The notes beneath the pieces were generated by a model. That model had not been told where the DNA came from. It did no database searches and saw only the letters and a list, made by a program, of their open reading frames with translations. From Polyangia bacterium (GTDB lineage: Bacteria > Myxococcota_A > Polyangia > Nannocystales > Nannocystaceae), in contig JAUHWG010000005.1 in NCBI GenBank assembly GCA_030424595.1, positions 281,177 through 345,176 of the forward strand: a DNA stretch of 64,000 bases, in the 5' to 3' direction. The position numbers were made by a program, and so were the translations under genes. Of this stretch, positions 15,278 to 61,599 are shown in pieces. Position 1 is the first letter of the stretch. Every line of letters begins with the position of its first letter.

Positions 15278-18200
15278 TTGCGAACGCCCTCAGAAGTTGA
15301 CGTCATCTTCCGTGATGACGGGATCTGTCTCCTCCACGACGGAGAGACCTGCGAGCTCAGCTATGAGGCGCATCAGCGCTGGATCGTCGACGGAGAGGCC
15401 CCCTCGGAGGTCTTCGCGGCGGGCTCTTCAAGGCCCGAGCCGGGGGAGACGAGAGGCCCGGAGAGCGGGGCGACGAGCTTTCCGCTGGTGGTCGGCGAGC
15501 ACCTCCTCCTGCGCCCGCTCGGCAGCGGCAGCTTTGGCGAGGTCTTCGCGGCCTGGGACCCGCTGTGCGGCGAGCAGGTCGCGGTAAAGGTTTTGCGCCG
15601 CGTCGACCCCTGGTCGCTGCAGGCGTTCAAGAACGAGTTTCGCCGGATCGTCTCGCTCGCCGCCGTCGACGGGCTGGTCGTGCCGGAGGAACTGGTCGAG
15701 GCCCGCGGCCGATGGGCCCTCGTGATGCGCCTCGTCGGCGGTCGTGAGATCGACGCGGCCCTGCGGGAGGCGGCCGGCGCCGAGGGTCCGCTAGCCGATG
15801 AAGACCGGCTCCGCGAGCTGACGATCGATCTCGTGCGGACGCTGGTGACGCTGCACTCCGGCGGCCTCATCCACATGGATCTCAAGCCCGGCAACATCCG
15901 GGTCGACGAGGGGGGAAGGGTCTGCGTCCTCGACTTTGGCCTCTCGCGCCTGCGCGGGCGGGACCGGGCTGAGACCCACTTCGCCGGATCGCCGCTCTAC
16001 ATCGCCCCGGAGCAGCTGCTCCGTCAGCCGCCGACCGGCGCGGTCGATCTCTACGCCCTCGGGATCATGCTCTACTCGGCGTTCACCGGGGAGCATCCGT
16101 TTCGGGGCGCTCATGATCTGATGATCGCGAGGCTCGAGGAGCCGGCGCCGTCGCTCACGAGGCGACGCCCGGAGGCGGGCAAGCTCTGGGCGAAGATCGT
16201 CGCCGGTCTCCTGCATGATCGGCCGGCGAAGCGCCTCGGAGCGGAGGAGCTCCTGGCGCTCTTCGGCGCGCGCCCGCCGAAGAGCGTGGCGCCGCCTCGC
16301 TTGATCGGCCGGGAGTCGGAGCTCGCGGACCTGCGCTCGGGGTGGCGCGGCGTCTGCGAGGGGGTGCCGTCGCTGGTGGTCCTCAGCGGCGAGCCGGGCG
16401 TCGGCAAGACCGAGCTGGCCCGGGCCTTCGGCGATGAGCTGGCCGAGGGATCGGCGGCGATGGTCTGGGGCGCCTGCTACGACCGCGAGACCGTCCCCTA
16501 CAAGACCGTCGACGTGCTCGTCGAGGGGTTGGTCGACCTCCTCCTCGGCGACCCGGAGCGGCTGGCGCTGGCCCGTGACCTCCCGGCGCTCGCGGGCCTC
16601 GCCCGGGTCGCGCCGGCGCTCGCGGCCGTCCTCGGCGAGGGCGCCGGGGAAGAGAGCGACGACCGGAGCGGCGACGGGCAACCAGCGGCGCAAGGGGGCC
16701 GCGGCGAGGGGCTCACCGCGCTCGTCTCCCTGGTCGCCGAGCGGGCGCCGCTGCTCCTGGTGATCGATGATGCGCAGTGGGGCGACGCCGACTCCGCTGA
16801 CCTGCTGGCGCCGCTCCTCGCGAGCCCGAGCCCGGGGCGGGTGATGATCATCTTCACCGTCCGCGCCCGGGACTGGGAGACCTCGCCCTTTGGCCGGGCG
16901 TTGGAGTCGCAGATCGCCAAGGGCTTGCCCCGCGAGCTCGCTCGCCCGGAGATCGGCCGCCTAGGCGCTTTCCAGGCCCGGGCGATGCTCCTCGCCTGCG
17001 CCCCGGAGGCCGCCTCCGAGGGGGCGATCGCGAAGGTGCTCGAGCTCGCCTCGGGCAGCCCCTACCTCCTCTCCGCCTACGCTCAGCTCCTCACGGGGGA
17101 GCGCGGGATCGCCGAGGTCCAGGGGGGAGATGTCATCGGCCTCCGCCTCGCCGAGCTCAGTGAGCATGAGCGTCACGTGATCGACGTGATCGCTGTCGCG
17201 GGCGCGCCGCTCGAGCTCTCGATCGTTCTGGCGGCGGCGGGGGTCGAGGCGCCGTCGCGGCGGACCCTCGCGAAGCTCCGCGCGGAGCGGGTGTTGACGT
17301 TGGACCATCGCGGCGTCGAGCGGCGGGTGGCGATCGCCCACGGGCTCATCCGTGAGGGAGTGCTGGAGCGACTCTCCGCCGAGGAGGTTCGTCTCCTCCA
17401 CGCCGACCTCGCCCAGGCGATGCTCTCGCGGGGCGCCGAGGACCCGGGGCGGATCGCCCAGCACCTCTACAGCGCTGGCCGCTTCGCGGAGGCCCGCGAG
17501 CTCGGCCTGCGCGGCGCCGCAGAGGCCGAGGAGGCGGGCGCCTACGCCCAGCTCGCGGAGCTCCTGGGGCTGGTCTTGCGGGCAGATCGCGATACTCGCC
17601 GCGATCACGAGCGCATCAAGCTTCGGCGGGCGAGGGCGCTCATGGCCGCGGGGCGAGGCGGAGAGGCCGGTGAGATCTACGCCGCGCAGGTGGGGGCGGA
17701 CCCGGCCGAGGTGCGGGCGTTTCGGCGGGCGGCGGTCGAGGCGTGGATGACCGTCGGACAGGTGGAGCGCGGCCTCGAGGTGTTCCGGCCCCTCCTCCGG
17801 GAGCTGAGGATGCCGAAGCTCCACGGCGGCGTCGCGGGGCTCGCTCGGTTCCTGTCCCGGCTGGCCAAGATCGCCGCCCAAGGCGGACGACTTCGCCCCG
17901 CGGAGCTCGAGGATCCGCGGGCGGCTGAGCGAGCGGACACCTGCTGGGTCGGGATCAAGGGGCTGTCGACGGTCGAGCCTGTGTACGCGCTCAACCTGAT
18001 GGCCGACGGGCTCTTCTACGCCGCGGCGAGCGGATCGCGGCTGCGCCTCGGGCGGGCGATGGGGCACCTGGCCGCCCTCTTCGGCGATGCCCCAGGTCTT
18101 CGTCGACACGTCCCGCGGTGGTTCGATCAGCTCGTGGAGTGGTCGAAGGACGAGCCCTACCTGGCGGCGACCCTGCCGCTGTGGCGGAGCTTTCGCGCCC

Positions 18201-19051
18201 ACTCCGAGGGCGAGCTGACGCGGGCTCGCGAGGAGGGGCAGCGGGCGATGGAGCTCCTCGGAGAGCTCCCGGAGGCGAGCTGGGAGCGGCTGCAGGCGGC
18301 GAGCTGCGCCGCCCGTGCGCTGCGAAACCAGGGGGAGTACGTCGCCTGCGCAGCGCTCGCGAGGTCCCAGCTGCGCACCGCGGAGCGTTGCGGCGATCTC
18401 TACGCGCAGGTGCTCTTCCGCCTCACGCCGCTCCTCGCGGTGCTCGCCCGCGGCGGCCAGCGTGAGGTCCGAACCGCCTGTGATTGGATCGAGGAGGTGT
18501 GGCTGCCCGGGCGCTACACGGTGCAGAGCTTCTACGTGATGGTCGAGCGCTGCTACGAGGAGCTCGCCCGCGGGGACTCGAGCGCCGCCGCAGATCGCCT
18601 GAGCCGCGGGCGCTGGGCCTATTTCCGCAGCGGCGGCGAGATGATCTCGCTCATGAGGGTCGAGTGGCGGCTCATCCAGGGGCGGGTCCTCCTCGCGCTC
18701 GAAGGTCCGCCGCCTCGGGCTCTGACGCCTGTCGCGAAGGTGATAGCTCAGCTCCGCGCCGCCAAGACGCCGGAGGCGGTCGGCAACGCGGAGCTGATGG
18801 CGGCCGCCCTCGCGGCTCGGCGGGGCGATCGAAGCGACGCTCTCGCGGCGCTTCGGCGGGCGATCCAGAGCTTTGACTCGGTCGGGATCGCGATGGAGCG
18901 GGAGGCGGCGCGCCTGCGGAGCGCCGAGCTTATGGGCGATACGGCGGAGGCCGAGGACGCGCTGCTGCAGATCCGCCGCTTGGGCGCGAGGGAGCCGGAG
19001 CGCTGGGCGAGGGTCATCGCGCCCGGCTTTTCGCAGGTCCAGGTCGCCTGA
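15278..19051 (+). CDS. Ser/Thr protein kinase fused to AAA ATPase and TPR-like region
   Basis: A 1257-aa multidomain signalling protein. TTG at 15278 is the only start before the kinase domain. Kinase: glycine loop LGSGSFGEVF near 82, VAVKVL near 103, catalytic loop HMDLKPGN near 200 (Met in place of the usual Arg of HRD), DFGLSR near 218. ATPase of the PknK/MalT-like AAA_16 class: RLIGRESELADL then Walker A GEPGVGKTEL near 374 and Walker B LLLVIDDAQWGD near 494. The C-terminal half is helical with TPR-like repeats, usual for signal-integrating STAND proteins. This combination is common in myxobacteria. The missing HRD Arg suggests regulation that does not depend on activation-loop phosphorylation. 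Partners are unknown. Confidence 0.88.
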   Translation: MRTPSEVDVIFRDDGICLLHDGETCELSYEAHQRWIVDGEAPSEVFAAGSSRPEPGETRGPESGATSFPLVVGEHLLLRPLGSGSFGEVFAAWDPLCGEQVAVKVLRRVDPWSLQAFKNEFRRIVSLAAVDGLVVPEELVEARGRWALVMRLVGGREIDAALREAAGAEGPLADEDRLRELTIDLVRTLVTLHSGGLIHMDLKPGNIRVDEGGRVCVLDFGLSRLRGRDRAETHFAGSPLYIAPEQLLRQPPTGAVDLYALGIMLYSAFTGEHPFRGAHDLMIARLEEPAPSLTRRRPEAGKLWAKIVAGLLHDRPAKRLGAEELLALFGARPPKSVAPPRLIGRESELADLRSGWRGVCEGVPSLVVLSGEPGVGKTELARAFGDELAEGSAAMVWGACYDRETVPYKTVDVLVEGLVDLLLGDPERLALARDLPALAGLARVAPALAAVLGEGAGEESDDRSGDGQPAAQGGRGEGLTALVSLVAERAPLLLVIDDAQWGDADSADLLAPLLASPSPGRVMIIFTVRARDWETSPFGRALESQIAKGLPRELARPEIGRLGAFQARAMLLACAPEAASEGAIAKVLELASGSPYLLSAYAQLLTGERGIAEVQGGDVIGLRLAELSEHERHVIDVIAVAGAPLELSIVLAAAGVEAPSRRTLAKLRAERVLTLDHRGVERRVAIAHGLIREGVLERLSAEEVRLLHADLAQAMLSRGAEDPGRIAQHLYSAGRFAEARELGLRGAAEAEEAGAYAQLAELLGLVLRADRDTRRDHERIKLRRARALMAAGRGGEAGEIYAAQVGADPAEVRAFRRAAVEAWMTVGQVERGLEVFRPLLRELRMPKLHGGVAGLARFLSRLAKIAAQGGRLRPAELEDPRAAERADTCWVGIKGLSTVEPVYALNLMADGLFYAAASGSRLRLGRAMGHLAALFGDAPGLRRHVPRWFDQLVEWSKDEPYLAATLPLWRSFRAHSEGELTRAREEGQRAMELLGELPEASWERLQAASCAARALRNQGEYVACAALARSQLRTAERCGDLYAQVLFRLTPLLAVLARGGQREVRTACDWIEEVWLPGRYTVQSFYVMVERCYEELARGDSSAAADRLSRGRWAYFRSGGEMISLMRVEWRLIQGRVLLALEGPPPRALTPVAKVIAQLRAAKTPEAVGNAELMAAALAARRGDRSDALAALRRAIQSFDSVGIAMEREAARLRSAELMGDTAEAEDALLQIRRLGAREPERWARVIAPGFSQVQVA

Positions 19052-24625: not shown

Positions 24626-27600
24626 CTAGTCGAGGTCCCAGCTCACAGGCTCGCGGGGCGTGGTCGCGTTGCTGTCGTGGCGGAGCTTCGCCAGGGCGCG
24701 GTAGGCGTGGCGACGCAGGCGGTTGATCCCGCCGAGCGGTCGGTGCTCCGGGAGAGCGCGCCAGGGGTTGAACGTGAGCTCTTCACAGAACTCTCGCAGG
24801 CTTGCGCTCTCGACCTCCTGCTGCGGCAGCTTCAGGGTCGCGAGCTTGACCAGCGTCGAAGGCTCGGAGGCCCACTCGATCCGCGGGTCTTCGATCGGCG
24901 TCGACGCCGGATCGATCCGGAGCTGGATCAGGAGGTCGAAGGCGGCGCTGCCCTCCGCGAGGCGAGCGGCGAGCCTTTTCCTAAGAATGTCGGGCGAGTC
25001 GTCCTTGGGGTGTCGGCTCGGGTTCTGATTCGGCTGCGGCCGGAGCAGGTATTTCACCGCACGATCGCCGAAGAGGTAGGGCGTGACGCTCGAGTAGGGG
25101 ATGTCGAGCAGATCGTCGCAGCGGACGAAGCTCGCCCGCATCGTCCGCCAGGCCCGAAAGCGCAGGGTCCCGAGGCCGATAAAGAAGCCGATGATCTTGG
25201 ACAGCCCCCCGTCTTCGGCCTTGATAAGCGTTTCGGTCTCGGCGACGTCGCGGGTCATGAGCGCGGGGTAGCTCGAGAGGAGGAGATCGTGGGTGGTGTC
25301 GTCCTCGCGCCCCTCGAGGAGCTTGGCCCCGGGGACGTCCATCAGCTTGATCGCGAGGCCGCGGATGTCCTTCTTCCGGTCGGCTTGGGGCTGGGCGGCA
25401 GCGTTTGAGAGGCGGATCCAGGCCCGGTACTCGCGGGGCTCGCGGAAGAGACCGATGCGGTATTCGGCGGGGAGGTCAGGCTCGACCTTGAGGGTCGCGC
25501 GGACGCAGGCGTGCCCCTTGGCGAAGCGACCGCGGAGCGTCCTCCGGTAGAGGTTCTCGCGGCCCATCCGCGCGCGGGTGATGTCGATGATGCTGTTGAC
25601 GTGGAGCTCTTCGTCGGCCGGCACTTCCTCCAATTGCTCGCCCGGGGGCGCCTGGCCAAGCGCGGCGCCGAGGAGCCGCACCGCGGGGAGCGAGGGCATG
25701 AAGAGGTAGGCGCTGCCCCGGACCTGGACAAAGCCGCCCATCTCGGTGCAGCGCCCCCGCAGCCCGAGCTCGACGTCGCTCTGGATCGTGAAGGTGGGCG
25801 GATCTGTCCCGAGCTCGGCGTCATAGCGGACGCCGACCAGCGGGTCGGGATCCGCGTTGAGGCCGGCGAAGTTGGGGTTGTTGCACCATTGCTGCTGGAT
25901 GAACTCGAACTGGCGCTCGATGTTGGCGTTGAAGCAGAGGAATTGCAGCCCGCGCTCGGTCGCGGCGTCGGTCGGTCGGTCGGCGGCTCGCTCGGGTCCC
26001 TCCTCCGCGGTGGCGGCTCGGAGCATCGCCTCCGGTCGCAGCTCCGGGTCGAGCGGCGGGCCGTAGGGGCGTCCACGGCGGAGGATCCGGTGGAGGTTGG
26101 AGAGGCGCAGCGACTCTGCGCGGGAGACCCCGAGCGACCAGTCGCGGGGGTTGGTGCGGCGGACGTGCGAGCCGAAGGGACAGCGAGCGCCGTAGCGATC
26201 GTTGTCGCCGCCGTTCTCGAGGTAGTTGAAGTCGTCCTCGTCCTGGAAGCGCGCCCGCTCAGGGTCGCCGTCGGGGTGACGGACGAGCGAGGCCCCGCTC
26301 GGCCAACGACCGACCATCTTGCTGGCGACCGTGAGCCCGTCGAGCTCCTCGCTGCGACCGTCGCAGTAGCGCCAGAACGCCTCGACGTCCTGCGAGAGCT
26401 GGCGGAAGACCAAGTAGCTGCCGTTGCGGCCGAAGTCGAAGCCGCTCGCGGTGGTCGGGCTCGGCGAGACGTTGCCGTAGCCGTCGCGGTGCCCCAGGAG
26501 AAACTCACCGGCGGCGAGGGTGTTGCCGCTGACCTCGGGTCGTCCGCTGCCGGCGACGACCGGCTGGGCGATGCCGTCGCGAAAGCCGAAGTGCTCTTTG
26601 CGCCCGTGGAGCGTCCGCCCCTCGAGGTCGACGACCAGCTCCGCCCCGCAGCGCTCCGCCTGGAGCTGGTAGTGGTCGCGCCAGCGGAGGACCGCCTCCT
26701 CGGTAGAGGCGTAGATCATGAGGGCGATGTGCACCGGGTTCTCGCGCGAGCCCCAGCGCCAACGCTCGGGCGCGTTGTCGCCGACATCGCCGTTGACCCG
26801 CGCTCGGTAGGGGCTGTGCGAGTCGTCGACGAAGGCGGAGGAGAAACGGTCACAGAGGGTCTTGTCGAGGCCCAGCGCCCGCAGGCCGGCGTGGCTGAAG
26901 GCGACGTTGACGAAGGGGTCCGCGGAGGCGGCGGAGGCGGGCGCGGAGGCGGCGGAGGTCAGGGGCAGCTCGCTCAGCCAGCGGAGCAGCGCGTCGCCGG
27001 GCTCGCGGACCCGCAGGAGCAAGAACCTCGCCTCCGTCTTATGACCATAGCCGCGGAGGATGATCCCCTGGATCTCCTCCAGCGGCAGCGGCGGGTCCCG
27101 GGTCTGCTCCGCCCCGTAGAGCCTGTCGACGCCCTTGCGGTTGACCGAGCGCAGGCGGAAGAGCCAGCTCGTCGCGTCGACGGCCTCGGGATCGGCGAGC
27201 CCCCGCCGGATCATCGTGTTGTCGTTGACGTTGATGATCGACAGGCCCGGGTAGGCGCAGTACCAGACCTGGGTCTGGAGCTGGTGGTGGCGGGTCCAGG
27301 CGAGGAAGCGGGAGGCGTCGCGGGAGCCTGCCTCGAGCAGCCACTTGGTCCGCGGATAGCGGTCGGTGTTGCTCCACACCGCGGTCAAGCCTGCGCTCGC
27401 CTGATCGATGAAGTCTCCGAGGTAGCTCTGCCAGGAGTTGTCGAAGTTCGAGAAGAAGAGCACTCCGCCCTTCGCCGTGAAGACCCAGCGGGCGAAGTGG
27501 ATCGACGGGATGTCGCCGAGCTTGCCGTGGTTGAAGACGTTGGTCGCGAGGAGCTGGAGCACGCGGAAGACCGCCCGCAGGAGCACCCAGCGCAGGGGCC

Positions 27601-28531
27601 CAGGCTTGCGAGCGACGAAGTGGGTGAGGGGGTTTTGGAGGAAGAGATTCTCCCCGCTCGACGCCGCTCGGAGGCGCTCATCGGCCTCTGGGGAGCGCTC
27701 TGGCTGGAACTGGGGGTCGCGTTCCTCGAGCATCCGCAGGCGGAGGACGCCGAGGAGGGCGATGAGCACGAGGGCGCCGAGGAGCCCGTAGAGGGCAGAG
27801 CTGAGCGGAGGCGCCGAGACCCAGGCGCCGAAGAGGAGCCCAGCGACGGCGACGACGAGGGCGAGCTGGAGCGCGATCGCGAGGCCCGTGACCCGGCCTT
27901 GGAGGTCCGGCTGCGGCGGAAACTCGGGCACGCCGTCGGCGTAGTCAGGGTGCTCGCCGATGGCCTCGCAGATCGCAGCGCGGACAGCCTCCGGGCTGAG
28001 CTCTCCCCATTGTCTGGCGTCGAGCTCGCGGTCCACCGCGCGCCGGAGCTCGGCCTCCCAGAGGATCTGCGCGCACGAGCGGCCTGGGGCGCCGACGAAG
28101 AAGGTCTGCGAGGGGACGCGGCTTCGCTGGAGGTAGCGCTTGAAGTCTCGCTCGACGTAGCCCTCGCAGCACTCGAAGACCCTCGCGAGGCCAGCCCCTG
28201 CGCGCTCCAGCAGCGCGTCCAGGTGGAGGCTGCGGGCCCGCCGCTCGGAGCAATCGCTCTCCCCCTCGGGACCGTCGTAGTTGGTGGAGAAGGCGAGCTG
28301 TGGCGCGGTCAACGGCTCGCGATCGACGATGACGAAGCGGGCGTAGTGGAGCCCGGTCAGGGCCTGGAAGGGGACGGTGACCTCCGCCGGTGGACACCCG
28401 CGCATGACCTCGACGGTCTCCTCGCCGATCCTCTCGAGGAGCGCCCGCAGCTCCTCGATCCTCCCGGGCTTTATCGGGACGAGGACGAGGAGCGCGAACT
28501 GGCGCGTCGGCGTTGTCGAAGGTCGCGGCAA
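24626..28531 (-). CDS. Membrane-anchored fusion: unknown N-domain, DyP-type peroxidase, catalase-like domain
   Basis: A 1301-aa protein joining parts normally encoded separately. Residues 1-210 and about 290-430 form an uncharacterised region (LARWV-like segment IHFARWVFTAKGGVLFFSNF, then YCAYPGLSIINVNDNT); two membrane helices lie at about 215-270. The middle is a dye-decolourising peroxidase: distal GFRDG with Asp652, NGSYLVFRQLSQD, and the proximal heme His789 in CPFGSHVRRTNPRD, so the heme pocket looks intact. From about 1000 onwards is a catalase-like domain (ATLKVEPDLPAEYRIGLF, IRGLAIKLMDVPG, SSVTPYLFGDRAVKY). There the usual distal His (HxK) is Phe (RFAKGH) and the distal Asn position is Ser. 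TTG start at 28531, 3 bp after the stop of the DUF4331 gene, so co-transcribed and probably co-translated. Confidence 0.85.
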   Translation of the reverse strand: MPRPSTTPTRQFALLVLVPIKPGRIEELRALLERIGEETVEVMRGCPPAEVTVPFQALTGLHYARFVIVDREPLTAPQLAFSTNYDGPEGESDCSERRARSLHLDALLERAGAGLARVFECCEGYVERDFKRYLQRSRVPSQTFFVGAPGRSCAQILWEAELRRAVDRELDARQWGELSPEAVRAAICEAIGEHPDYADGVPEFPPQPDLQGRVTGLAIALQLALVVAVAGLLFGAWVSAPPLSSALYGLLGALVLIALLGVLRLRMLEERDPQFQPERSPEADERLRAASSGENLFLQNPLTHFVARKPGPLRWVLLRAVFRVLQLLATNVFNHGKLGDIPSIHFARWVFTAKGGVLFFSNFDNSWQSYLGDFIDQASAGLTAVWSNTDRYPRTKWLLEAGSRDASRFLAWTRHHQLQTQVWYCAYPGLSIINVNDNTMIRRGLADPEAVDATSWLFRLRSVNRKGVDRLYGAEQTRDPPLPLEEIQGIILRGYGHKTEARFLLLRVREPGDALLRWLSELPLTSAASAPASAASADPFVNVAFSHAGLRALGLDKTLCDRFSSAFVDDSHSPYRARVNGDVGDNAPERWRWGSRENPVHIALMIYASTEEAVLRWRDHYQLQAERCGAELVVDLEGRTLHGRKEHFGFRDGIAQPVVAGSGRPEVSGNTLAAGEFLLGHRDGYGNVSPSPTTASGFDFGRNGSYLVFRQLSQDVEAFWRYCDGRSEELDGLTVASKMVGRWPSGASLVRHPDGDPERARFQDEDDFNYLENGGDNDRYGARCPFGSHVRRTNPRDWSLGVSRAESLRLSNLHRILRRGRPYGPPLDPELRPEAMLRAATAEEGPERAADRPTDAATERGLQFLCFNANIERQFEFIQQQWCNNPNFAGLNADPDPLVGVRYDAELGTDPPTFTIQSDVELGLRGRCTEMGGFVQVRGSAYLFMPSLPAVRLLGAALGQAPPGEQLEEVPADEELHVNSIIDITRARMGRENLYRRTLRGRFAKGHACVRATLKVEPDLPAEYRIGLFREPREYRAWIRLSNAAAQPQADRKKDIRGLAIKLMDVPGAKLLEGREDDTTHDLLLSSYPALMTRDVAETETLIKAEDGGLSKIIGFFIGLGTLRFRAWRTMRASFVRCDDLLDIPYSSVTPYLFGDRAVKYLLRPQPNQNPSRHPKDDSPDILRKRLAARLAEGSAAFDLLIQLRIDPASTPIEDPRIEWASEPSTLVKLATLKLPQQEVESASLREFCEELTFNPWRALPEHRPLGGINRLRRHAYRALAKLRHDSNATTPREPVSWDLD

Positions 28532-28534
28532 TGG

Positions 28535-30061
28535 TCAGTGCCTTGAGTGCGGCGGGGCGAGGCTGCGCCTGCGCAGTCCGAGCGCGATCGCGGAGCCGAT
28601 GATGAAGAGCGTCGGAGCGCGTATCGAGGTGCTCCCGGAGAGGATCACGCTGACCCCGGCGAGGCCGAGGAGGAGGGAGATGAGGCCGAGGCTGCGGGCT
28701 CTCGCTCGGCGCGACAATCCGCGGCTCCGCGCTGCGCTGATGCCGACGCGGAGGGCGTGGATGAGCGCGATCAGGGCGGCGAGGAGGGTGAGGATCGCCG
28801 TCGCGAAGGTCATCAGCCCGCGCCAGCGGGCCTTTCCGGAGGACTGGACCCGAGCGCCGTTGCGCTGGACAAAGCCGAGGATGGCAGGGAGCGCGCCCTC
28901 GTTCGGCGGGGCCAGGTAGGGGAACACGGGGGAGGGGGGCTGCGTCGCCCGATCGACGCCGTCGCGGATCCGCGGGCCCTCGCCGCGGTTGACGAGCAGC
29001 GTGTAGAGGTCGTCGATGATGTCGTCGTCGAGCGAGCGACCGCCGCAGCCGAGCTCCTCGACGCCCTCGAGCATCGCCCGCTCGATCGCGAAGGTGGGGG
29101 CGCGAGAGCGGCTGCACTCGCGGTGGACGTCGACCACCAGGTAGTCGTCCAGCAGTAGCTCTGCGAGGGCGTCTCTGTCGGCCGTCGGCCATTGACGGGC
29201 GCCGTCCGCCGCGTCGTACCAGTCGATGCTGGCGCGCAGCTGTTCACGGTACGCGGGTCGGCCTGAACTCTCGTCTGCGAAGGGTTCGTCGGCGTTGTAC
29301 ATCGGCCGCAGATCCGCCGCCCCACGCGGAGCCAGGAGGATGTTGGCGAGCTCGGGCCGGCCGAGACGATCGAGGCGGCGGAGAGCTCCGCTGCGGCGAT
29401 CGGTCGTCATCGCCTGCGCCGCGACAGCGACCAAGCCTCCCCCTCCGTCGAGCCCCTCGGCGCCGACGTTGATCTCGAGCGCGAGGGCGAGGACATTCGC
29501 GTGCTGGAGACCGTTGCGGCCCTGCGGCTCCTCGAGGACGCCGCGCTCGCCGAGCGCCGCAAACCACGCGGTGTTGATGAAGAAGGGATCTGAGCGCCGC
29601 CCCGCGAAGACCCGCAAGCGCTCGCCCGGCACGGGGTCGGAGATGTCGTCAACATCGGCGAGGGCGATCGCCCCGGCGCTGCTCTGGCAGCGAACCTTGT
29701 GCGCGGCGAAGGGGCGGTGTGGAGTCTCGAAGGAGCACTCGATCGCGTAGTCCCCGGCCGTCTCAAAGCTCCGAGCCTGTCCGGTCGTTCGGGCGCGGGC
29801 GGGGCGGAGAAGGATGTCGTAGCGGACCTGCTCGGAGAAGTGCCCGCTGCTGCGGACCAGCGGGTAGACGCCGAGAATGACCGATAGATAGCCAGGGCGG
29901 TCAGGCGTCGGGAAGGCGTAGAGATCCGTGAGATCGGCGATCGGGTGGTCGGTGGTGATAGGGCCGTCGACGTGATCGCTGGCGACCGCGACCTTCGGGG
30001 CGTCGAGGGCGACGAGGAGCGCGACGAGGAGCGCGACCACCGGTGCCCTGCCTGCCATCAT
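28535..30061 (-). CDS. DUF4331-family exported/membrane protein
   Basis: A 508-aa protein with a signal peptide (VVALLVALLVALDAPKVAVA) followed by SDHVDGPITTDHPIADLTDL, the typical opening of DUF4331. The family-wide domain spans roughly residues 27-400, with YAFPTPDRPGYLSVILGVYP and QHANVLALALEINV. Unusually, the C-terminus carries two or three membrane helices (about 430-455 and 465-495) and a basic tail, which would anchor the domain outside the cytoplasmic membrane. First gene of an operon with the DyP/catalase fusion 3 bp downstream, suggesting a shared envelope redox or heme-related role. Either of two adjacent ATGs (30061, 30058) could be used. Confidence 0.82.
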   Translation of the reverse strand: MMAGRAPVVALLVALLVALDAPKVAVASDHVDGPITTDHPIADLTDLYAFPTPDRPGYLSVILGVYPLVRSSGHFSEQVRYDILLRPARARTTGQARSFETAGDYAIECSFETPHRPFAAHKVRCQSSAGAIALADVDDISDPVPGERLRVFAGRRSDPFFINTAWFAALGERGVLEEPQGRNGLQHANVLALALEINVGAEGLDGGGGLVAVAAQAMTTDRRSGALRRLDRLGRPELANILLAPRGAADLRPMYNADEPFADESSGRPAYREQLRASIDWYDAADGARQWPTADRDALAELLLDDYLVVDVHRECSRSRAPTFAIERAMLEGVEELGCGGRSLDDDIIDDLYTLLVNRGEGPRIRDGVDRATQPPSPVFPYLAPPNEGALPAILGFVQRNGARVQSSGKARWRGLMTFATAILTLLAALIALIHALRVGISAARSRGLSRRARARSLGLISLLLGLAGVSVILSGSTSIRAPTLFIIGSAIALGLRRRSLAPPHSRH

Positions 30062-34828: not shown

Positions 34829-37800
34829 TCAGCGGACGACGGAGCGCCAGGCCGCCTGCGCCGAGAGGGTGAGGTCCTCGATCAGGGAGTAGGTCGCCGG
34901 GAGGAAGACGAGGGTGATCACGGTGCTGGTCGCGAGGCCGCCGGCGACGATGATCGCGATCGAGTGGTAGTAGACGCCGGCCAGGGTCGGGTGGTGGAGG
35001 ATCATCGGCACCACCCCGAGGATCGTCGTCCCCGCGGTCATCAAGATCGGCCGGATCCGATCCTGCCCGGCCTGGGCGAGCGCCTCGCCCCGCGGGACGC
35101 CCTCGGCCCGGAGCTGGAGGGCGCGGTCGACGAGCATGATCCCGTTGTTGACGACGATGCCGATCAGGATAAAGAGGCCGATCATCGCCGCGGTGTCGAC
35201 CGTCGTCCGCGTCGCCCACATCGCCCAGGCCGCGCCGAAGCAGCCGAGGAGGCAGGTGACGAGGATCGAGAAGGGCTGGAGGAAGCTCTCGAAGAGCGAG
35301 GCCATCACCGCGTAGACGAGGATCAGGCAGAGCACGAGGTTGATCAGCATGTCGTCGCGGGACTGCTGATCCTTCCACCACGGGACCCAGTCGCCGACGG
35401 TGTAGCCGGCGGGGAGCTGGAGCCCTTCGAGGGCCTCGTCGACCAGCGCGCGGTTGGCCTGGGCGTCGGCGTTGACGAAGCGGATCTTGATCGAGACCAG
35501 GGTCTCGCGGTCGAGGCGCTGGACGAAGTGGGGGGCGCGGGTCGTCGAGAACGAGGCGAAGTTGGAGAGCGGGACCTCCTCGCCGGACGCGAGGGTGATC
35601 CGCAGGTCGCGGAGCTCGGCGAGGCCGGGGGCGCTCTCCTGCTCGCGCAGGCTCATGGTCCCGGCGCTAAGGCGCAGCTCGATCTCCCCCTCCTCGCCGC
35701 GGACCTTGCCCATCGGCACGCCCTGAAAGGCGGTCGTGATCACCTGCGAGATCGCGTCGGCGCGGAGACCCGCGCGGATGATCCTGGCGGCGTCGAGCTC
35801 GACGTGGACCTCGCGGGAGCCCTCGTCGTAGGGGCCGGAGACGACGTCGTAGCCGCCCGACTCCGGGTCTTGCACGTCGCCCTTGGGGAGCCGCTCGCGG
35901 AGGCGGTCGACGACCCGCTGGGCGAGCTCCATCAGCACCCCCATGTCCTCGCCGCGGACGGCGATCCGGACCTCGTTGCGGTCGCCGCGGCGACGGCTCG
36001 AGCGGCGATCCTCGCCCACCAGGAAGCGGAGCCCAGGGCGCTCCGGGAGGTTCTTGGAGATAGCCAGCTTAAAGGCCTCGATGTCCTCCTCGCTCTCGGC
36101 GCGGGCGCTCGGATAGGCGTCGCATTGGCCCCACCAGTCGGAGTACTGGCAGGAGAGGTGATCGAGGCCGATCGTCTCCTTGACCGCGAGGAGCGCCTTC
36201 TCGACGGCGAGCACATGGCCGCCGATCTCCTCGTGGTCGGGCGAGCCGGAGAGCTGGAAGGTGATCGGCGTCGCCTCGGTCTGGGAGTCGAGATCGCCGA
36301 GCTGGTAGGTGAGCTGGGTCGCGGGGAAGGCCGCGCTCGCGGCGAGGCAGAGGCCGGCGAGGACGGTCAGCCGCGGCCACCGGAGCGAGCGAGCGATCAG
36401 CCAGCGGTAGCCGCGGGCGATCGCCTCCAGGACGGGGATCCGCGGCTGCGCCTTCGCCTCGCCGAGCGACCTCGACATCATCAGCGGCACCGCGGTCTGC
36501 GAGATCACCAGCGAGCAGAGGAGCACCGCCGCGAAGGTGATCCCGAGCGGCCGCAGGTAGGCGGTCATCCGATCGGCGGGCGGGCCGAAGACCAGGGGCA
36601 GGAAGACGATCACCGACGAGAGGGTCGAGGCGATGGTCGCCAGGCCGACCTCACGGCTGCCGCGGAGGATCGCCGGCTCTTTTGCCTCGCCGCGGGCGAG
36701 GTGGTTCTCGATCGCCTCGACGATGACGACCGCGTTGTCGATCAGGGCCCCGACCCCGAGCACCAGGCCGAGGAGGACGATGCAGCTCAGCTCATCCCCG
36801 CGCAGGAAGAGCACGCCGGTGGTCGCGAGGAGCGTCAGCGGGATGCACATCGCCGCGATCAGCGTCACGCGCATGCGCCGGAGGAAGAGGAAGAGGACGC
36901 CGATCCCGAGGAGGCCGCCGAAGATCCCGGTGGTCCGGAGATCGCCGAGGGTGTTGAGGATCTGCTCGCCCTGGTCGGCGAAGATCATCATCCGCACGTC
37001 GCCGAGCGCCGGGTCTCCGCCCATCTCGGCGATCGCCGCGCGGACCCGCTCGGAGAGGTCGACCGGGCTCGCGCCGGCCTCGGCGTAGATCGCCAGGTTG
37101 ATCCCGGGGCGGCCGTCGAGGCGCCTGAAGTGGCGCTGTTCTTTGGCGTGGACGGAGACGTCGGCGACCTCGCCGAGGCGCGCCTGGATCTCGGGGGGGC
37201 CGCGGGCTCCGAGGCCCGAGCTCGCCCCCTGGGAGCCGCGCAGCTGCGAGAGCATCGCGCTCGTGAGGGCCGGAGAGGTCCCGAGCTGGCCGGAGAGGGC
37301 GAGGGTGGCCGCGGAGCCGATGCCGACGTCGGGCATGGTCTCGGCATCGGTGGCGGCGGTGGCTGTACCGCCGCGGCGCAGGGGCAGGGCGGCGTAGGCC
37401 TCCGGGTCAGCGTCGATCCCAGGAGCGCGGACGCCAGGGGTGACATCGCCCTCCTGGATGAGCCCGAGGCTGCGACCTTGCCTGGCGGAGCGGACAGTCT
37501 CCGTGATCGACTGGGTGGCGACCCCGGTCCGGCGGACGCTCTCGAGGTCGAGGGCGATCTCGAGCTCGTCGGGCTCGACCCCCTCAAACTCGATCCGCGA
37601 GACCCCCGGGATCCGCTCGAGCTTGCGGACGATGTGGCGCTCGATGGTCTGGTAGCGGAGGTCGCCGTCGCTCGCCAGGCGGAGCGAGAGGACCGGCTCG
37701 TCGGCGGAGCTCCAGGAGTCGATCGTGATCCGCTGGATCGTGTCGGGGAGGTTCGGCTTGGCGCGATCGAGGCGCTCGCGGATCTCCGCCTTGCGGGCGT

Positions 37801-38119
37801 CGATGTCGGTCCCGGGGGCGAAGTCGAGGTTGACCCGGACCCCCCAGCCGCCGCTGCCGACCTGGATCTGCTGGAGGCCGCGGAGCCCGGCGATCTCCTC
37901 CTCGATCGGGCGGATGACCTCGCGCTCCAGCAGCTCCGGGGTCGTCCGCAGGACGCTGAAGCGGATCGAGATCTTCGACGCGCCGACGTCCGGCATGAAC
38001 GTCAGCGGCATCTTGAAGGTCGCGATCACCCCGAGGACGAAGGCCGCGACCAGGAGCATCGTGATCATCACCGGCCGGCGCAGCGCCAGGTTCGCGAGGG
38101 TGAAGGTGCGCGCTGCCAT
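34829..38119 (-). CDS. RND efflux permease, second copy of operon
   Basis: A 1096-aa inner-membrane proton-driven efflux pump of the RND (AcrB/HAE1) superfamily. Two sets of six helices flank porter domains. Helix 1 is preceded by ALRRPVMITMLLVAAFVLGV; the proton-relay helix reads LGVGALIDNAVVIVEAIENH. A 90-residue insertion of low complexity (about residues 225-315, rich in Ala, Gly, Thr) interrupts the first porter region. ATG at 38119 abuts the stop of the preceding permease with no gap. Together with the other permease and adaptor it resembles MdtABC-type pumps in which two different permeases form one trimer. Confidence 0.9.
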   Translation of the reverse strand: MAARTFTLANLALRRPVMITMLLVAAFVLGVIATFKMPLTFMPDVGASKISIRFSVLRTTPELLEREVIRPIEEEIAGLRGLQQIQVGSGGWGVRVNLDFAPGTDIDARKAEIRERLDRAKPNLPDTIQRITIDSWSSADEPVLSLRLASDGDLRYQTIERHIVRKLERIPGVSRIEFEGVEPDELEIALDLESVRRTGVATQSITETVRSARQGRSLGLIQEGDVTPGVRAPGIDADPEAYAALPLRRGGTATAATDAETMPDVGIGSAATLALSGQLGTSPALTSAMLSQLRGSQGASSGLGARGPPEIQARLGEVADVSVHAKEQRHFRRLDGRPGINLAIYAEAGASPVDLSERVRAAIAEMGGDPALGDVRMMIFADQGEQILNTLGDLRTTGIFGGLLGIGVLFLFLRRMRVTLIAAMCIPLTLLATTGVLFLRGDELSCIVLLGLVLGVGALIDNAVVIVEAIENHLARGEAKEPAILRGSREVGLATIASTLSSVIVFLPLVFGPPADRMTAYLRPLGITFAAVLLCSLVISQTAVPLMMSRSLGEAKAQPRIPVLEAIARGYRWLIARSLRWPRLTVLAGLCLAASAAFPATQLTYQLGDLDSQTEATPITFQLSGSPDHEEIGGHVLAVEKALLAVKETIGLDHLSCQYSDWWGQCDAYPSARAESEEDIEAFKLAISKNLPERPGLRFLVGEDRRSSRRRGDRNEVRIAVRGEDMGVLMELAQRVVDRLRERLPKGDVQDPESGGYDVVSGPYDEGSREVHVELDAARIIRAGLRADAISQVITTAFQGVPMGKVRGEEGEIELRLSAGTMSLREQESAPGLAELRDLRITLASGEEVPLSNFASFSTTRAPHFVQRLDRETLVSIKIRFVNADAQANRALVDEALEGLQLPAGYTVGDWVPWWKDQQSRDDMLINLVLCLILVYAVMASLFESFLQPFSILVTCLLGCFGAAWAMWATRTTVDTAAMIGLFILIGIVVNNGIMLVDRALQLRAEGVPRGEALAQAGQDRIRPILMTAGTTILGVVPMILHHPTLAGVYYHSIAIIVAGGLATSTVITLVFLPATYSLIEDLTLSAQAAWRSVVR

Positions 38120-41638
<3,519 letters not shown>

Positions 41639-41639
41639 G

Positions 41640-42971
41640 CTACTTGTCCTCGCTCTTGCGGGGGCGTTTTCCGGCGCCGCGTTTGTGCTCCCCGGGACCG
41701 CGCTTGCCTGCGCCGCGTTTGCCCTGCTCGTCCGCTCCTGCGGCGGCGTTCGCCTCTTTGCCCTCGTCGCTCGTGTCGCGCTTGTCGCTCTCGCTGCCCC
41801 CGGCGTCCGCCGGCGCGAGGGCGTTGGCGGCTCCGGTCGCGCTCGCCTCGCCGGGGCCAGCCCGGTCGCCCGCGCCGAGCATGCGGACCGGCATCCCCTC
41901 GACGATCCCGCCGCTGGCGTCGGCGATCACCGAGGCGTCGCTGGCGATGTCGCCGGTGACCTCGAAGCGCTGCTCGCCGCGGAGGCCGACGCTGATCCGG
42001 GTCCGCTTGGCCTTGCCGTCGACGACCGTGTAGACGTGGGGCTCGCCCTCGTAGTCGAAGAGCGCCTCGATCGGCAGGGTGAGGCTCGCCTCGCGGGCGG
42101 CGACCCGGACCTTCGCCCGGGAGAACGCGCCCGGTACGGCCGCCGGGGGGAAGGTCTCGGCGCGGGCGATGAACTTCACGGTGCCGGTGAGGGCGTCGAC
42201 GATCGGCGCCCTGCGGATCACCGAGGCTGGGAAGCTCGAGCCGTCGAGGAGCTCGAGCTCGACCTCCGAATTGACCGCGACCTCGCCGGCCTCCGCCTCG
42301 GGGATGTGGAGCTCGAGGTCGAGCTTGGAGAGATCGGCGATCGAGAAGAGCGGGGTCGCCTGGGTCGCCATGTTGCCGACGTCGACGTGGCGGGCGATGA
42401 TCGTCCCGGCGAAGGGCGCGGTCACCTTGGTCTGGGTGACCTGATGCCGCGAGACCTTGACGCTGGCCAGGGCCTGCTCGACCGCGTAGCGCTGCTTGTC
42501 GAGCTCTTCGCCGGAGACCGCGTCGAGGGCCGCGATCTGCTCCAAGCGGCGGAGCTCCGCCTGGGCGTTCTTCGCGGTCACCTGGGCGGCCGAGGCCTGG
42601 AGGTTGAAGGCGCGGCCGTCGAGGCGGGCGAGGAGCTGGTTGTCGGTGACGACATCCCCCTCTTCGGCCCGGAGCTCGAGGATCACGCCGGCCTGGGTGG
42701 CGACCAGATCGGCGCTGCGCAGGGCTTGGAGGGTCCCCGAGGTGCGGTAGAAGCGCTCGACCGTCGCCGGCGCTGGCGTGGTCACCGCGACAGGGAGGGC
42801 GTCCTCGCCCTTGCCGCCCTTGCCGTCCTTGCCGCCCTTGCCGCCCTTGCCCTGCCAGGCGGCCTTTCCAGCCTTGCCGCCCTTGCCCTGCTCCTCGCCC
42901 GCGGCAGCGCCGCAACCGGTCGCGATGGTGAGCGCGAGCATGAGTGCGTGGTGGAGGCGTAGCTGGGGCAT
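41640..42971 (-). CDS. RND periplasmic adaptor (membrane fusion protein), lipid-anchored
   Basis: A 443-aa adaptor bridging the inner-membrane pump and an outer-membrane channel. Signal peptide ends LTIATGC (Cys20). Residues 25-58 are a Gly/Lys repeat linker (KGGKGGKDGKGGKG), then the barrel-sandwich hybrid (GTLQALRSADLVATQAGVI), a helical hairpin (AAQVTAKNAQAELRRLEQI) and the return lipoyl half (VTAPFAGTIIARHVDVGNM), followed by the beta-barrel. The C-terminus ends in an unusual basic repeat tail (GKRGAGKRGPG). First gene of the three-gene operon; no TolC-like gene is nearby, so the channel must be encoded elsewhere. Confidence 0.9.
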   Translation of the reverse strand: MPQLRLHHALMLALTIATGCGAAAGEEQGKGGKAGKAAWQGKGGKGGKDGKGGKGEDALPVAVTTPAPATVERFYRTSGTLQALRSADLVATQAGVILELRAEEGDVVTDNQLLARLDGRAFNLQASAAQVTAKNAQAELRRLEQIAALDAVSGEELDKQRYAVEQALASVKVSRHQVTQTKVTAPFAGTIIARHVDVGNMATQATPLFSIADLSKLDLELHIPEAEAGEVAVNSEVELELLDGSSFPASVIRRAPIVDALTGTVKFIARAETFPPAAVPGAFSRAKVRVAAREASLTLPIEALFDYEGEPHVYTVVDGKAKRTRISVGLRGEQRFEVTGDIASDASVIADASGGIVEGMPVRMLGAGDRAGPGEASATGAANALAPADAGGSESDKRDTSDEGKEANAAAGADEQGKRGAGKRGPGEHKRGAGKRPRKSEDK

Positions 42972-44726: not shown

Positions 44727-47700
44727 CTAGGCGCGGCGACGCCGGCGACGGATGAGCCCTGCGAGGCCGAGCCAGAGGGCGAGGCTCGCGGCCTTCTCCC
44801 CCGCGCTCGCGCTCTCGACGGTGCAGCCGCAGCCGCTCTCCCCGTCGATCTCACCGGTCGTGGAGGAGGTCGCCGAGTCGTCGTCGGTGTCGAAGCCGCC
44901 GGTCTCGGTGTCGAAGCCGGTCTCGCTGTCGGAGGTCGGCCCCATGCCGCAGTTGTCGGGGATCCAGGTCGGGAAGGGCGTGTTGGAGATCCCGCTGACG
45001 GCGATGTTGTCGATGTTCCAGCCGGGCGCACCGGCGGCGGAGTCGGTGCCGATGCGGAAGCGGAGGTGGACCGTCTTGCCGGCGAAGGCCTCGCCGAAGT
45101 CGAGCGTCATCGGCTGCATCTTCGGGTAGCCTGGGCTCTCGTCGGTGAAGGCGTTCGCGCCGTTGATCGGGTTGGCGGCGGAGTTGATCACGCCGTTGTA
45201 GCCGGGGTCGAGGTAGTTGGACACGTCCTCCCAGCTCTCGCCCTGATCGCTGGAGACCTCGAGCACGCCGCCGTCCCAGGCGATCTCCTCGGAGAACTCG
45301 AACTTGAAGGCGTGGTCGAAGGTGATCACCAACGGCTCGCCGGCGACGGACTCGAGCGCCGGTGAGATCAGCGAGGTGTCGCTGACATTGCCGATGTCGC
45401 GGCCGGTCCAGACGTAGCCGCTCTCGGTCGTCGCCTGGCGGCTCCAGACGGTGTCGCCGGCGGTGCCGTTGATCTGCCAGGGCGAGTCCGGGACCTCGAC
45501 GTCGTCGGTGGCGGAGCTTTGCGGGTAGATGTCCGCGTGGAGGACGACCGGCAGCTTGAGCTCGCGGACCTCTTCGCAGCCGCCTGGGGTGGAGAGCCGC
45601 ACCGTCAGGTTGACGTGCTCATCGTCGACCAGACCCTCGACCACCGAGACCGGGAAGGAGAGGTCCAAGTTGTCGAGGCGGGCGACAGCCGGGAGGGTCA
45701 CGGATGAGCCCTCGGGGAAGGTCAGGCTCGGGGTCGGCGAGAGGACCTCGACGGTCGCCCCCGCCGGCAGCTCCTCGACGCCGTAGTTGAAGAGCTCGAT
45801 CGAGATGAGCCCGGACTCGCCGCCGTCGATCACCCCGTCGCCGTCGCAGGAGTCGTCGCCCTCGCCGATGTTGAGGCTCGTCAGGGCGGCGTTGGCCCGC
45901 AGATCGTAGGACTCGACGATCCCCGTGAAGTCCTTGGAGTCGCGGTCGGGGCCGACCGCGCAGGTCCCGGCGCCGCGGCGGGCGAAGGCCTGGGCGGCGG
46001 TGATGAAGTCATCCTCGTCGATCTGCGAGATCGCGATCAGGATCGCGTCGCGCTGCTCGGTGTAGGTCGGCGCCGGCGGTGTCATGATCATCCCGGCGAC
46101 GACGTAGTCGGCGAGGGAGCGCCGGACCTCGGCGAAGCTCTTGTCGCCCGCGTTGGCCTTGTGGAGGCTGATGTAGAGCTCCCACATCATCGTCGCCCAG
46201 ACCTCGCCGGCGTTGTGCACCTGGGAGTTCAAGCCGCCGCCGTTGAGCGGGGCGACCTGCGGCAGGCTGTTGTCGGTGCCGATGTGCTTGAACGTCAGCG
46301 GGTCCTTCTCCATGTTGACGGAGTAGGGGACCCGGCGGATCCCGAAGTACCCCGTGTCGTCGAAGCCCGCGTAGGTCTGGCTGGCGTAGGTGCCGTCGAG
46401 GTCGTCGCCCTCGCGCAGGGTCTGGTGGAGGGCGATGAAGTCGCCCCAGCCCTCGCTCATGGCCCCGCACTGGGCGCTGCCGCACTCGACCAGGCGGTGG
46501 TGGATGTAGTGGCCCCACTCGTGGGCGACGATCTGGTTGTCGATGGTCCCGTCGCGCTCCGCGTCGGAGTCGCCGACCATCGTCGCCGTGACCTCGCCCT
46601 GCTCGAGCTCCGCCTTGATCAGGGCGCCGTCGGCCTTGGTCACCGCCTGGGTCGGGATCGACGGGTCCTCCATCATGCTGTCGTTGCCGAGCCCGGGCGG
46701 CGAGTTGCCCTCGACGTTGTCGGCGATGACCACCGCGATCGCGCCCTGGGACATCGCCCCGTTGACCTTGGTCTCGAAGGTGCAGTCGCCGCGGTCGATG
46801 AGGACGATCTTGCCGGCGACGTCGTTCTTCGGCGGCTCGCAGCCGTCGGTCGGGCTCATGCCCTCGCCGTCGTCGACCAGCACCATCGTCCCGGACAGGT
46901 CGTACTTGGTCGGCCCGAACTGACCCTTGGTGACCGTATAGGTCGCCTCCGAGGGGGCGAGGGTCAGGCTCGCGCTGCTGTTGCGCGGGGTCCACAGGTA
47001 CATCTGCATGACCGGAGAGACGCCGTCGCTCGGCGTCATCATGTTCGCGTTGTTGCGGGCGCCGGTCAGGGCCGCGTCCTGGGCCTGGGCCTGGAGGCGG
47101 TCACCACCTTCGCCGCCGCGGCCGAAGTTGTCGTCTTGGGCGTTGCCTGCGGCCTCGTTGAAGCCGGAGTCGTACCAATAGTCGTGGAGCCAGTTGATGT
47201 CGTAGAAGAGCTGCGTGATCGCGGCCAGCGACTGCTCTTCGTTCGCGAGCGGCTCCGAGTTGGGGTCGTAGACGTAGTCGAAGGTGGCGGGGGCGCTGGT
47301 CTTCGCCCGGAACTCGCCCTCCTCGGGGTTGAAGCCGCTGGGGCTCGTGTGGTCGACATAGGCGTCGACGTTGTTGCCGAGGGTCTCGACCGCGCCGTCG
47401 GGGAGCCAGGGATCGCTGCCCCCGTCGGGGTTGGTGTTGAAGGCGTCGATCGTGATGAGGTTCGGCTTGGTGTAGTCGGTGGGCCCGACGTCGGGGAAGC
47501 CGGTCGGGTGCGGCGTGTGATCGGCGAAGGGCCCGTCGTGGGGGCGATGGTCTCCGTCAGCGTCGGCCCAGACCCGGTAGGAGACGGCCTCGTTGGCCTT
47601 CATGCTGCGGCGGTGGAGGATCCGGCCGTCGTCCGCCGCGATCACGTACTGATAGCCGTCGAGCTCCGGGTCGGCGCCGACATAGGTCTGGGTCTCGACG

Positions 47701-48476: not shown

Positions 48477-48636
48477 GTTTGCTAGGAACCTCAGGCTCAG
48501 AGGTAGGCATGGTAGCCCTGGGTCCAGGGGCGGTCTATGGGGCTTGCGCGGCTTTGGGGCTATCTGACGCACTCGGCGAGTCTCTCCGGCTACCGAGGAT
48601 CCATGGGGAAATAGGTTCGCAGGCTGCGCCCCTGCG

Positions 48637-60796: not shown

Positions 60797-61372
60797 ATGA
60801 GCACCGAAACCCCGCCCGCTAGTCCGGAGGAGGGCAGCCCGCTGCCCGCGATCGTCGCAGGTGTCGCGATCCTTGGTGTTGCTGCCTTCCTGATCTTCGG
60901 GGGAGGAAGCAGCGAGGAGGCGACCGAGAAGACCTCAAGCGCCAAATCGAGCCAGTCTGCGGACCGGGCTGAGGAGGTCGTGGCGGGCGGTGGGGGCCGT
61001 GTGCGCGGTGGCGTCGGCGCCCGCAGCATCGACGACGCGAAGGGCCGGTCGACGGCCCGACGCAACCCGAAGCTCGGCGCGCCGATGGAGGGGATGAAGC
61101 TCGATCCGACGCCGCGCCCCAAGGAGCCGCCGGACTTCCAGAGCGCGGCCGAGGAGATCGAGTACTACGAGAAGAAGCTCGAGCGGGAGCGGGAGATCCT
61201 GGTCCAGCGCGAGCGCTTCGTCGAGCGCCTGGAGAAGGTCAAGAAGGAGGCCGTCTCCGCCGAGGAGCGGGAGGTCGCCGAGGGTCGCGGGAAGATCGTC
61301 ACCGACAACTACGCCAAGCAGCAGCAGGTCGTCGAGGAGCTCGAGAAGAAGCTCGAGGGGCTAAGGGGCTAG
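60797..61372 (+). CDS. Membrane-anchored coiled-coil protein
   Basis: A 191-aa protein with one N-terminal membrane helix (LPAIVAGVAILGVAAFLIFG, residues 16-35), a Gly/Ser/Arg-rich linker, and a C-terminal coiled coil of about 65 residues (EIEYYEKKLEREREILVQRE, QVVEELEKKLEGLRG). No family recognised. ATG at 60797, divergent from the RluA gene by 43 bp. Probably a structural or tethering protein of the envelope. Confidence 0.65.
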   Translation: MSTETPPASPEEGSPLPAIVAGVAILGVAAFLIFGGGSSEEATEKTSSAKSSQSADRAEEVVAGGGGRVRGGVGARSIDDAKGRSTARRNPKLGAPMEGMKLDPTPRPKEPPDFQSAAEEIEYYEKKLEREREILVQRERFVERLEKVKKEAVSAEEREVAEGRGKIVTDNYAKQQQVVEELEKKLEGLRG

Positions 61373-61519
61373 GGGCCGGGCTCGCAGAGGGGCTCTGCTC
61401 GGGCGCCTGCTGCAAGCCGGCGTTTCGGGGCTGCACCGCCCGGAGCGGCGGCGGTCGAGGTGCTGTGGTCGTCCGAGGTAGGCTCGCCCGACGAGGTGAG
61501 GAAGCGGGGCTCGCCCTCC

Positions 61520-61591
61520 GGGTGAGGCTCCGGGTGAGGCTCCGGGTGAGGCTCCGGGTGAGGCTCCGGGTGAGGCTCTGGGTGAGGCTCT
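61520..61591. repeat. 12-bp tandem repeat array
   Basis: Six copies of GGGTGAGGCTCC (the last two with CT for CC at the end), located between the stops of two convergent genes. Non-coding on the plus strand; on the minus strand it gives ASPG repeats without a supported gene. Confidence 0.85.
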
Positions 61592-61599
61592 GGCCGGGG

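Follow-up and report, generated by a model that had tools for sequence, protein, structure and literature searches.

The described systems that come closest to the protein reported here are the coral fusions of an allene oxide synthase or a hydroperoxide lyase to a lipoxygenase (PMC5617202; PDB 3dy5, 1u5u), the Nostoc 10S-dioxygenase, which is paired with a catalase-related hydroperoxide lyase (cited in PMC13049297), and the fungal dioxygenase-P450 fusions, which are linoleate diol synthases (PMC13049297). P450s and catalase-related proteins have little in common apart from the heme and the ability, known from oxylipin pathways (PMC5617202, PMC13049297), to rearrange lipid hydroperoxides. Here, we analysed a fusion gene located in a stretch of 64,000 nucleotides (64 kb) from a Polyangia bacterium (assembly GCA_030424595.1, contig JAUHWG010000005.1, positions 281,177 to 345,176), which in its whole length is referred to as the window. 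The product joins an N-terminal membrane region, called the N-module in the following, to a DyP-type peroxidase and a catalase-related domain, and we conclude that it condenses into one chain a gene cassette of wide distribution, which has a catalase-like part in some loci and a P450 in others, a key context that was missing from an earlier note on this DNA. Residues are numbered according to the 1301-amino-acid fusion protein and coordinates according to the window; P-numbers denote homologues and L-numbers genomic loci. The fusion gene and its parts are the following:

24626..28531, minus strand: fusion gene from the list of open reading frames (ORFs), 1301 amino acids, comprising N-module, DyP and catalase-like domain; TTG start; 76 other near-full-length homologues among 120 listed
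27917..28510, minus strand: first barrel of the N-module, residues about 8-205; H62 and C122 invariant in alignment A2
27719..27901, minus strand: predicted transmembrane hairpin of two helices, residues about 211-271 (211-237 and 242-271 in the model); peaks in hydropathy at 216-234 and 245-263
27152..27691, minus strand: second barrel of the N-module, residues about 281-460, in the predicted model a duplicate of the first; H345, W349, Y370 and W423 invariant in alignment A2
25664..27082, minus strand: DyP-type peroxidase domain, residues about 484-956
26576..26578, minus strand: presumed catalytic Asp652 of the DyP (motif GFRDG), from the alignment with 8re3; invariant in alignment A1
26165..26167, minus strand: presumed proximal heme His789 of the DyP, from the alignment with 8re3; invariant in alignment A1
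24629..25654, minus strand: catalase-related domain, residues about 960-1301
25523..25525, minus strand: F1003 in place of the catalase distal His (alignments A1 and A3; register from catalase alignments)
24701..24703, minus strand: Y1277, the presumed proximal heme Tyr, with R1273 four residues earlier; invariant in alignment A1, Y1277 also in alignment A3

The three parts lie in a single ORF in the order N-module, DyP, catalase-related domain. Of 148 homologues, 120 were listed, and 77 of these align over at least 96% of the query, the window's own protein being one of them; because 76 other proteins thus span the fusion, we could rule out that an assembly error or a frameshift has joined separate genes. 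The three-domain fusion reported in the earlier note is therefore real.

The context of the fusion emerged from a genome scan with the family alignment, in which the best 80 of 247 loci were named. The match range spans into both N-module and DyP in 76 of the 80 loci. In most cases (52/80) the two are encoded by separate, adjacent genes on the same strand, with gaps of 3-30 bp in 42 of these, and in 12/80 they share one ORF; the other 16 loci are truncated, suffered from losses by the ORF caller or are without an N-module. Indeed, the parts are separate genes in most other loci, as the earlier note had stated for these domain families. The pair occurs in eight named phyla (Myxococcota, Bacteroidota, Nitrospirota, Cyanobacteriota, Chloroflexota, Actinomycetota, Planctomycetota and Pseudomonadota), with two loci unassigned. 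The ORF caller, which takes the longest ORF first, lost the core in six of the 80 loci (L063, L064, L065, L068, L086, L097), and the remaining 74 were used for counting. Within 6 kb of the core, a catalase-related gene was found in 37 of these 74 loci, a P450 gene in 18, neither in 19 and both in none, the hypergeometric probability of such a zero overlap being 2.4e-7 if kinship is ignored. Among 23 later loci, three had a catalase-related gene, five a P450, nine neither and none both, and the core was not called in the other six, which include L135 and L141, chosen for their catalase-related gene. On a DyP tree of 81 rows (quick method, SH-aLRT support only), the third partner changes nine times between the catalase-related and the P450 state over 59 labelled rows, and both states occur inside Bacteroidota, Myxococcota, Chloroflexota and Pseudomonadota. 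The window groups with three other fusions (support 98), and next to them are L076 (Polyangia, P450) and L073 (neither partner called) (98). A published account of the cassette was not found among the matches listed in a literature search of titles and abstract openings.

The fusion itself is patchy even among close relatives, which follows from three surveys. Among 29 genomes of the window's order and family, only the window's genome gave a full-length match; no other full-length fusion was found in a sample of 377 Myxococcota genomes, for which at most two candidates were scored per genome; and the order of L037 (183 genomes) contains only three fusions, namely L037-L039. These three share the order N-module, DyP, catalase-related domain with the window. 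Elsewhere, the DyP is followed directly by the catalase-related domain (L103, L111), or a catalase-related domain precedes the N-module and the DyP is separate (L067, PF00199 E=3.4e-9; L124, the fused part of which is 51% identical to that of L067). Fusions with a P450 have the order P450, N-module, DyP (L071, L072, L095) or DyP, P450 (P0119, L013). That the same parts are joined in differing orders suggests, as far as sequence can tell, that they act together. In addition, two genomes with the three-part fusion (G395 and G396; L152, L153) carry a second N-module/DyP copy, in which the match ends before the catalase part, and no catalase-related or P450 match was found around the second copies (L154, L155). 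Extra stretches ahead of the N-module were observed in L069, L091, L154, L114 and L074, several of which may be wrong starts set by the ORF caller.

The N-module is a membrane protein family that is pointed out here and that has no match in Pfam or NCBIfam. The two membrane helices described in the earlier note coincide with the two hydrophobic segments in the hydropathy profile (residues 216-234 and 245-263). Based on the structure model, the region is predicted to consist of two duplicated monooxygenase-like barrels around a membrane hairpin. The barrels are duplicates of each other (hhalign probability 99.6%, with H62 paired to H345), and in the model they have the fold of the ABM superfamily (dimeric alpha+beta barrel), here as a tandem within one chain, the best two fold matches being the polyketide-pathway proteins 9lmn and 9ltx. 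No sequence model of this superfamily matched the N-module (Pfam, E up to 1; NCBIfam). Across the membrane segment, Pfam gave only Wzy_C (0.06) and DUF7269 (0.13), and the profile search of the N-module against the PDB only cytochrome oxidase subunit 2 with an E of 0.03 or worse. Next to the hairpin, positive charges are found on the side towards the enzyme domains, and the fusion protein has no signal-like segment; the enzyme domains are predicted to be located on the cytosolic side, with the hairpin in the membrane. The N-module is rare, as it was found in 1/395 Bacteroidota genomes, which is the centre genome itself, and in 5/396 Chitinophagales genomes, centre included.

The middle domain shows the DyP fold in the predicted structure, matches TIGR01413 (NCBIfam) over residues 490-949 with 104.9 bits (cut-off 100.5) and aligns to the DyP structure 8re3, from Deinococcus by its title, with E=3.7e-46. 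D652 and H789, which we take to be the catalytic Asp and the proximal heme ligand, are in register with the corresponding residues of 8re3 and unchanged across all 29 rows of alignment A1 (window included), in agreement with the intact DyP site proposed before. DyP peroxidases are a widespread group, and for most of them no natural substrate is known. In Pfam, the fusion protein gave sub-threshold matches only, since DyP_N and Dyp_perox_C did not reach their cut-offs and PF00199 was absent from the list at E up to 1; this database alone would thus miss both enzyme domains.

For the third domain, the catalase-like assignment of the earlier note holds with respect to the fold, but catalase activity is unlikely. 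As a single sequence, the C-terminal ~340 residues match 3e4w weakly (E=0.0015 with the whole protein, 3.1e-5 with the domain alone); a 21-row profile of the domain gave 3e4w with 1.7e-13, catalases from 7.7e-6 and the coral allene oxide synthase with 1.1e-5, and the predicted structure has the catalase/allene-oxide-synthase fold. R1273 and Y1277, presumably the heme ligand pair by analogy with catalase, are kept in the window together with R1284. The position of the distal His is occupied by F1003. In alignment A1, this column holds His in 26/29 rows and Phe in 3/29 (window, P0002, P0003), in alignment A3 His in 15/21, Asn in 5/21 and Phe in 1/21 (window), and a motif search that located the site in 94 of the 120 listed homologues gave H in 82, N in 8, F in 3 (window's entry included) and Y in 1. 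With its distal His replaced and without a PF00199 match, the domain is not an ordinary catalase, and judged by this residue catalase activity is unlikely in the window's lineage, in which the fold is kept. In one sub-branch of the catalase-related family (L052, L068, L088, L089, L094), this position is taken by Asn (motif NTKT). The domain could also be regarded as a degenerate passenger of what is simply a membrane-anchored DyP, for which the restriction of Phe to the window's own entry, P0002 and P0003 and the termination of five of 11 printed homologues after the DyP (P0084, P0088, P0092, P0097, P0117) would speak; we consider this unlikely, since the three residues and the fold are retained and the domain is full-length in P0002 and P0003, too.

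Further genes recur around the cassette. A patatin gene is located immediately upstream of the N-module gene in 10/80 loci (in L057, PF01734 E=5.2e-32), lies within 6 kb of the core in 11/74 and occurs only farther away at two. Genes of the animal-haem-peroxidase Pfam family (An_peroxidase), which includes cyclooxygenases, are found near 6/74 cores, as well as at L064 and L068, for which no core was called, and at the Myxococcota loci L127 and L129; PF03098 was confirmed for L064 and L103. Class III cyclases lie near 30/74 cores, 16 of them matching the profile of a long type (kinase, AAA, GAF and cyclase, as in L044) and 14 only that of a shorter type (cyclase and TPR, as in L057). GMC oxidases are near 5/74; for one of them, a cholesterol oxidase model was matched with a score far short of the cut-off. 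The P450s fused to or beside a DyP amount to 25 distinct sequences, i.e. 21 after removal of four duplicate rows (with L115, one of the set, aligned unsurely) and four added ones. All 25 have the heme Cys, and the acidic residue of the I-helix, which marks oxygen-activating P450s, is missing in 16. Two scanned P450 proteins of about 700 amino acids additionally match a GST C-terminal domain (L043:7634-9748, L076:13641-15752). Next to the catalase-related gene of one locus are TIR-SIR2 and STAND ATPase genes (L049:15361-18868), with relatives in L055 and L112. Large Streptomyces proteins adjoin two cassettes (L064:9665-12682, L065:14474-19219) and gave no Pfam match at E up to 0.001.

The alternation of the third partner, the phospholipase and cyclooxygenase-family neighbours and the membrane hairpin together point to lipid-hydroperoxide chemistry. 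We tentatively propose that the fusion acts at the membrane as a machine for lipid oxidation, whose catalase-related domain would convert, by rearrangement or reduction, a lipid hydroperoxide that the other parts make or handle, a reading to which we assign somewhat less than an even chance. In such a machine, the phospholipase (patatin) would release a fatty acid or have some other membrane lipid as its substrate, and the DyP, or the cyclooxygenase-like peroxidase where present, would oxidise the lipid. The catalase-related protein or the P450 would then follow as interchangeable second heme enzymes that act on the hydroperoxide formed, and the cyclase next to them could convert the product, or a precursor of it, to a signal. 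As the window's lineage has lost the distal His in the third domain, that step may have changed there. The alternating partner set and the neighbours would in this way provide, for one branch of the DyPs, a class of substrates that can be tested. In a more far-reaching version, which we hold to be improbable in its entirety, an eicosanoid-like circuit would exist in many phyla: a patatin would free the lipid, the membrane module and DyP (or the cyclooxygenase relative) would oxygenate it, the catalase-related protein or P450 would rearrange the hydroperoxide to a mediator and the class III cyclase would report, the window representing a one-polypeptide version in which the third site is remodelled, with Phe in place of His. 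If true, bacteria would have the phospholipase-oxygenase-isomerase-cyclase scheme in the form of a compact cassette, a counterpart of animal and plant lipid-hormone pathways.

Several observations weigh against the lipid-oxidation reading. F1003 argues against classical catalase-type chemistry in the window's third domain, the I-helix acid is kept in 9/25 P450s, which are possibly ordinary monooxygenases, and many hosts (Streptomyces, rhizobia, Bacteroidota) are not known for polyunsaturated fatty acids. Between positions 15001 and 45000 of the window, no called ORF matches the patatin, P450, An_peroxidase, GMC or cyclase profiles. Lipoxygenase is missing from 21 and An_peroxidase from 16 of the 22 cassette genomes tested, the window's genome being among the latter, so that in most cases no dedicated enzyme for making the hydroperoxide is apparent. 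The exclusivity statistic is too favourable owing to kinship among the genomes, and the 19/74 loci with neither partner also count here, some of them lying at contig edges and L067 having a divergent fused catalase. Moreover, neither an N-module nor a DyP was called near the stand-alone catalase-related genes at L135 and L141, from which we conclude that the catalase-related family also exists outside the cassette. Finally, the profiles for the neighbour families were derived from the cassette loci themselves, and the Pfam check covered representatives only. Lipoxygenase as a regular companion is not supported, the single positive genome (1/22) being the window's own, which contains three PF00305 lipoxygenase matches (G000:C51:212870-214147, G000:C29:324255-325322 and 322405-323670).

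Alternatively, the DyP and the catalase-related domain could serve peroxide detoxification at the membrane, removing H2O2 or membrane-damaging organic peroxides without forming a specific product. We regard this as doubtful, since the alternation with P450 and the operonic patatin would be unexpected, the distal His is replaced by Phe in the window and by Asn in the alignment A3 rows mentioned above, and the N-module, with its single hit in Bacteroidota, is too rare for a housekeeping function. Tailoring of a secondary metabolite, in which the ABM-like N-module, the DyP and the P450 or catalase-related enzyme would oxidise a small molecule such as a polyketide, a terpenoid or a sterol, would be in line with the fold matches 9lmn and 9ltx, with the GMC oxidases and with the patchy distribution; it appears rather improbable, as no pathway synthase or cyclase was detected among the scanned neighbour representatives (a small selection), the patatin and nucleotide-cyclase neighbours fit lipid signalling better, and a fold match shows no function. 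That the cassette acts in defence or an abortive response, with lipid oxidation as effector and the class III cyclase as sensor, is very unlikely. The Pycsar cyclase profile matches of the class III cyclases, a patatin that matches phospholipase effector profiles, the patchy distribution and the TIR-SIR2 and STAND proteins would speak for it; against it, the N-module, DyP and catalase-related protein of L057 match no PADLOC model, the cyclase, kinase and patatin matches concern broad families, and STAND/TIR genes occur in only three loci.

In the window, the fusion gene directly follows a gene of the DUF4331 family:

28535..30061, minus strand: DUF4331 gene, 508 amino acids, directly upstream of the fusion gene and in the same direction (PF14224 E=1.3e-27)

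Its stop is located 3 bp before the TTG start of the fusion gene, and the protein has hydrophobic peaks at residues 1-26 (signal-like), 416-434 and 458-476, which bears out the spacing and the C-terminal membrane segments that had been read from the DNA before. The two genes may be co-transcribed here. Since the DUF4331 protein starts with a signal-like segment, whereas the heme protein has none, the former is probably exported, which would probably place the two on opposite sides of the membrane. DUF4331 was found in none of the three other searchable fusion genomes and, with a single-sequence profile, in none of 18 other Myxococcota regions, that of L076 among them; blastp of the window's DUF4331 against the ORFs of 117 stretches gave only window-derived matches. 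The L076 genome does have DUF4331 genes, but the search of 20 kb surrounding its cassette (L130) gave no match. We therefore reject DUF4331 as a conserved cassette partner. From the membrane oxidative system acting on peroxides or lipids that the earlier note had envisaged, a lipid-acting, membrane-linked system fits the neighbourhood evidence, and the DUF4331 membrane partner has to be dropped. By sequence, DUF4331 has no relative in the PDB, and none of the papers searched contains this term. A second DUF4331 copy is present in the window's genome (G000:C21, about 60915-62200).

Apart from these genes, the window contains, all on the minus strand, two RND efflux pump genes and an HlyD-type adaptor in a row (34829-42971), a large M36 fungalysin-type peptidase with a PA domain (44727-48572) and a squalene epoxidase-like gene (62368-63855, PF08491 E=3.6e-32), which hints at sterol synthesis. 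On the plus strand, about 5.5 kb from the fusion gene, a Ser/Thr kinase-AAA protein is encoded (15278-19051), which corresponds to the first two domains of the kinase-AAA-GAF-cyclase protein of L044 and has no cyclase match.

Each enzyme class in the fusion is already known, and the comparison with known systems concerns their combination. The chains of the DyP peroxidases of Deinococcus and of D-type (8re2, 7anv) consist of the DyP domain only, whereas here two extra modules flank it. The closest solved relative of the third domain, the 33-kDa catalase-related protein of M. avium (3e4w/3e4y), is a 320-residue chain without DyP or N-module, unlike the fusion protein. The N-module differs from tandem ABM-like proteins such as WhiE-ORFI (9lmn), to which the profile search against the PDB gave no sequence match, by the hydrophobic hairpin between its barrels and by its own invariant His pair H62/H345. 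With regard to the systems described in PMC13049297, some cassettes resemble the Nostoc pair of heme dioxygenase and catalase-related protein in that An_peroxidase genes adjoin them; unlike in Nostoc, the DyP and the N-module are the constant parts, and An_peroxidase is near only six of the 74 cores. The P450-N-module-DyP and DyP-P450 fusions are reminiscent of the linoleate diol synthases, in which a peroxidase-type heme domain is fused to a P450, but here the peroxidase belongs to another superfamily and the P450 alternates with a catalase-related protein. As a working analogy, the fusion may be filed beside the lipid-peroxide heme enzyme fusions and outside the allene oxide synthase-lipoxygenase (AOS-LOX) family, the members of which, like hydroperoxide isomerases, have a fused lipoxygenase or cyclooxygenase-like domain where the window's protein has a DyP. 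Compared to the coral fusions, the DyP and the membrane-anchored N-module thus replace the lipoxygenase, and the distal His of the catalase-related domain is a Phe in the window.

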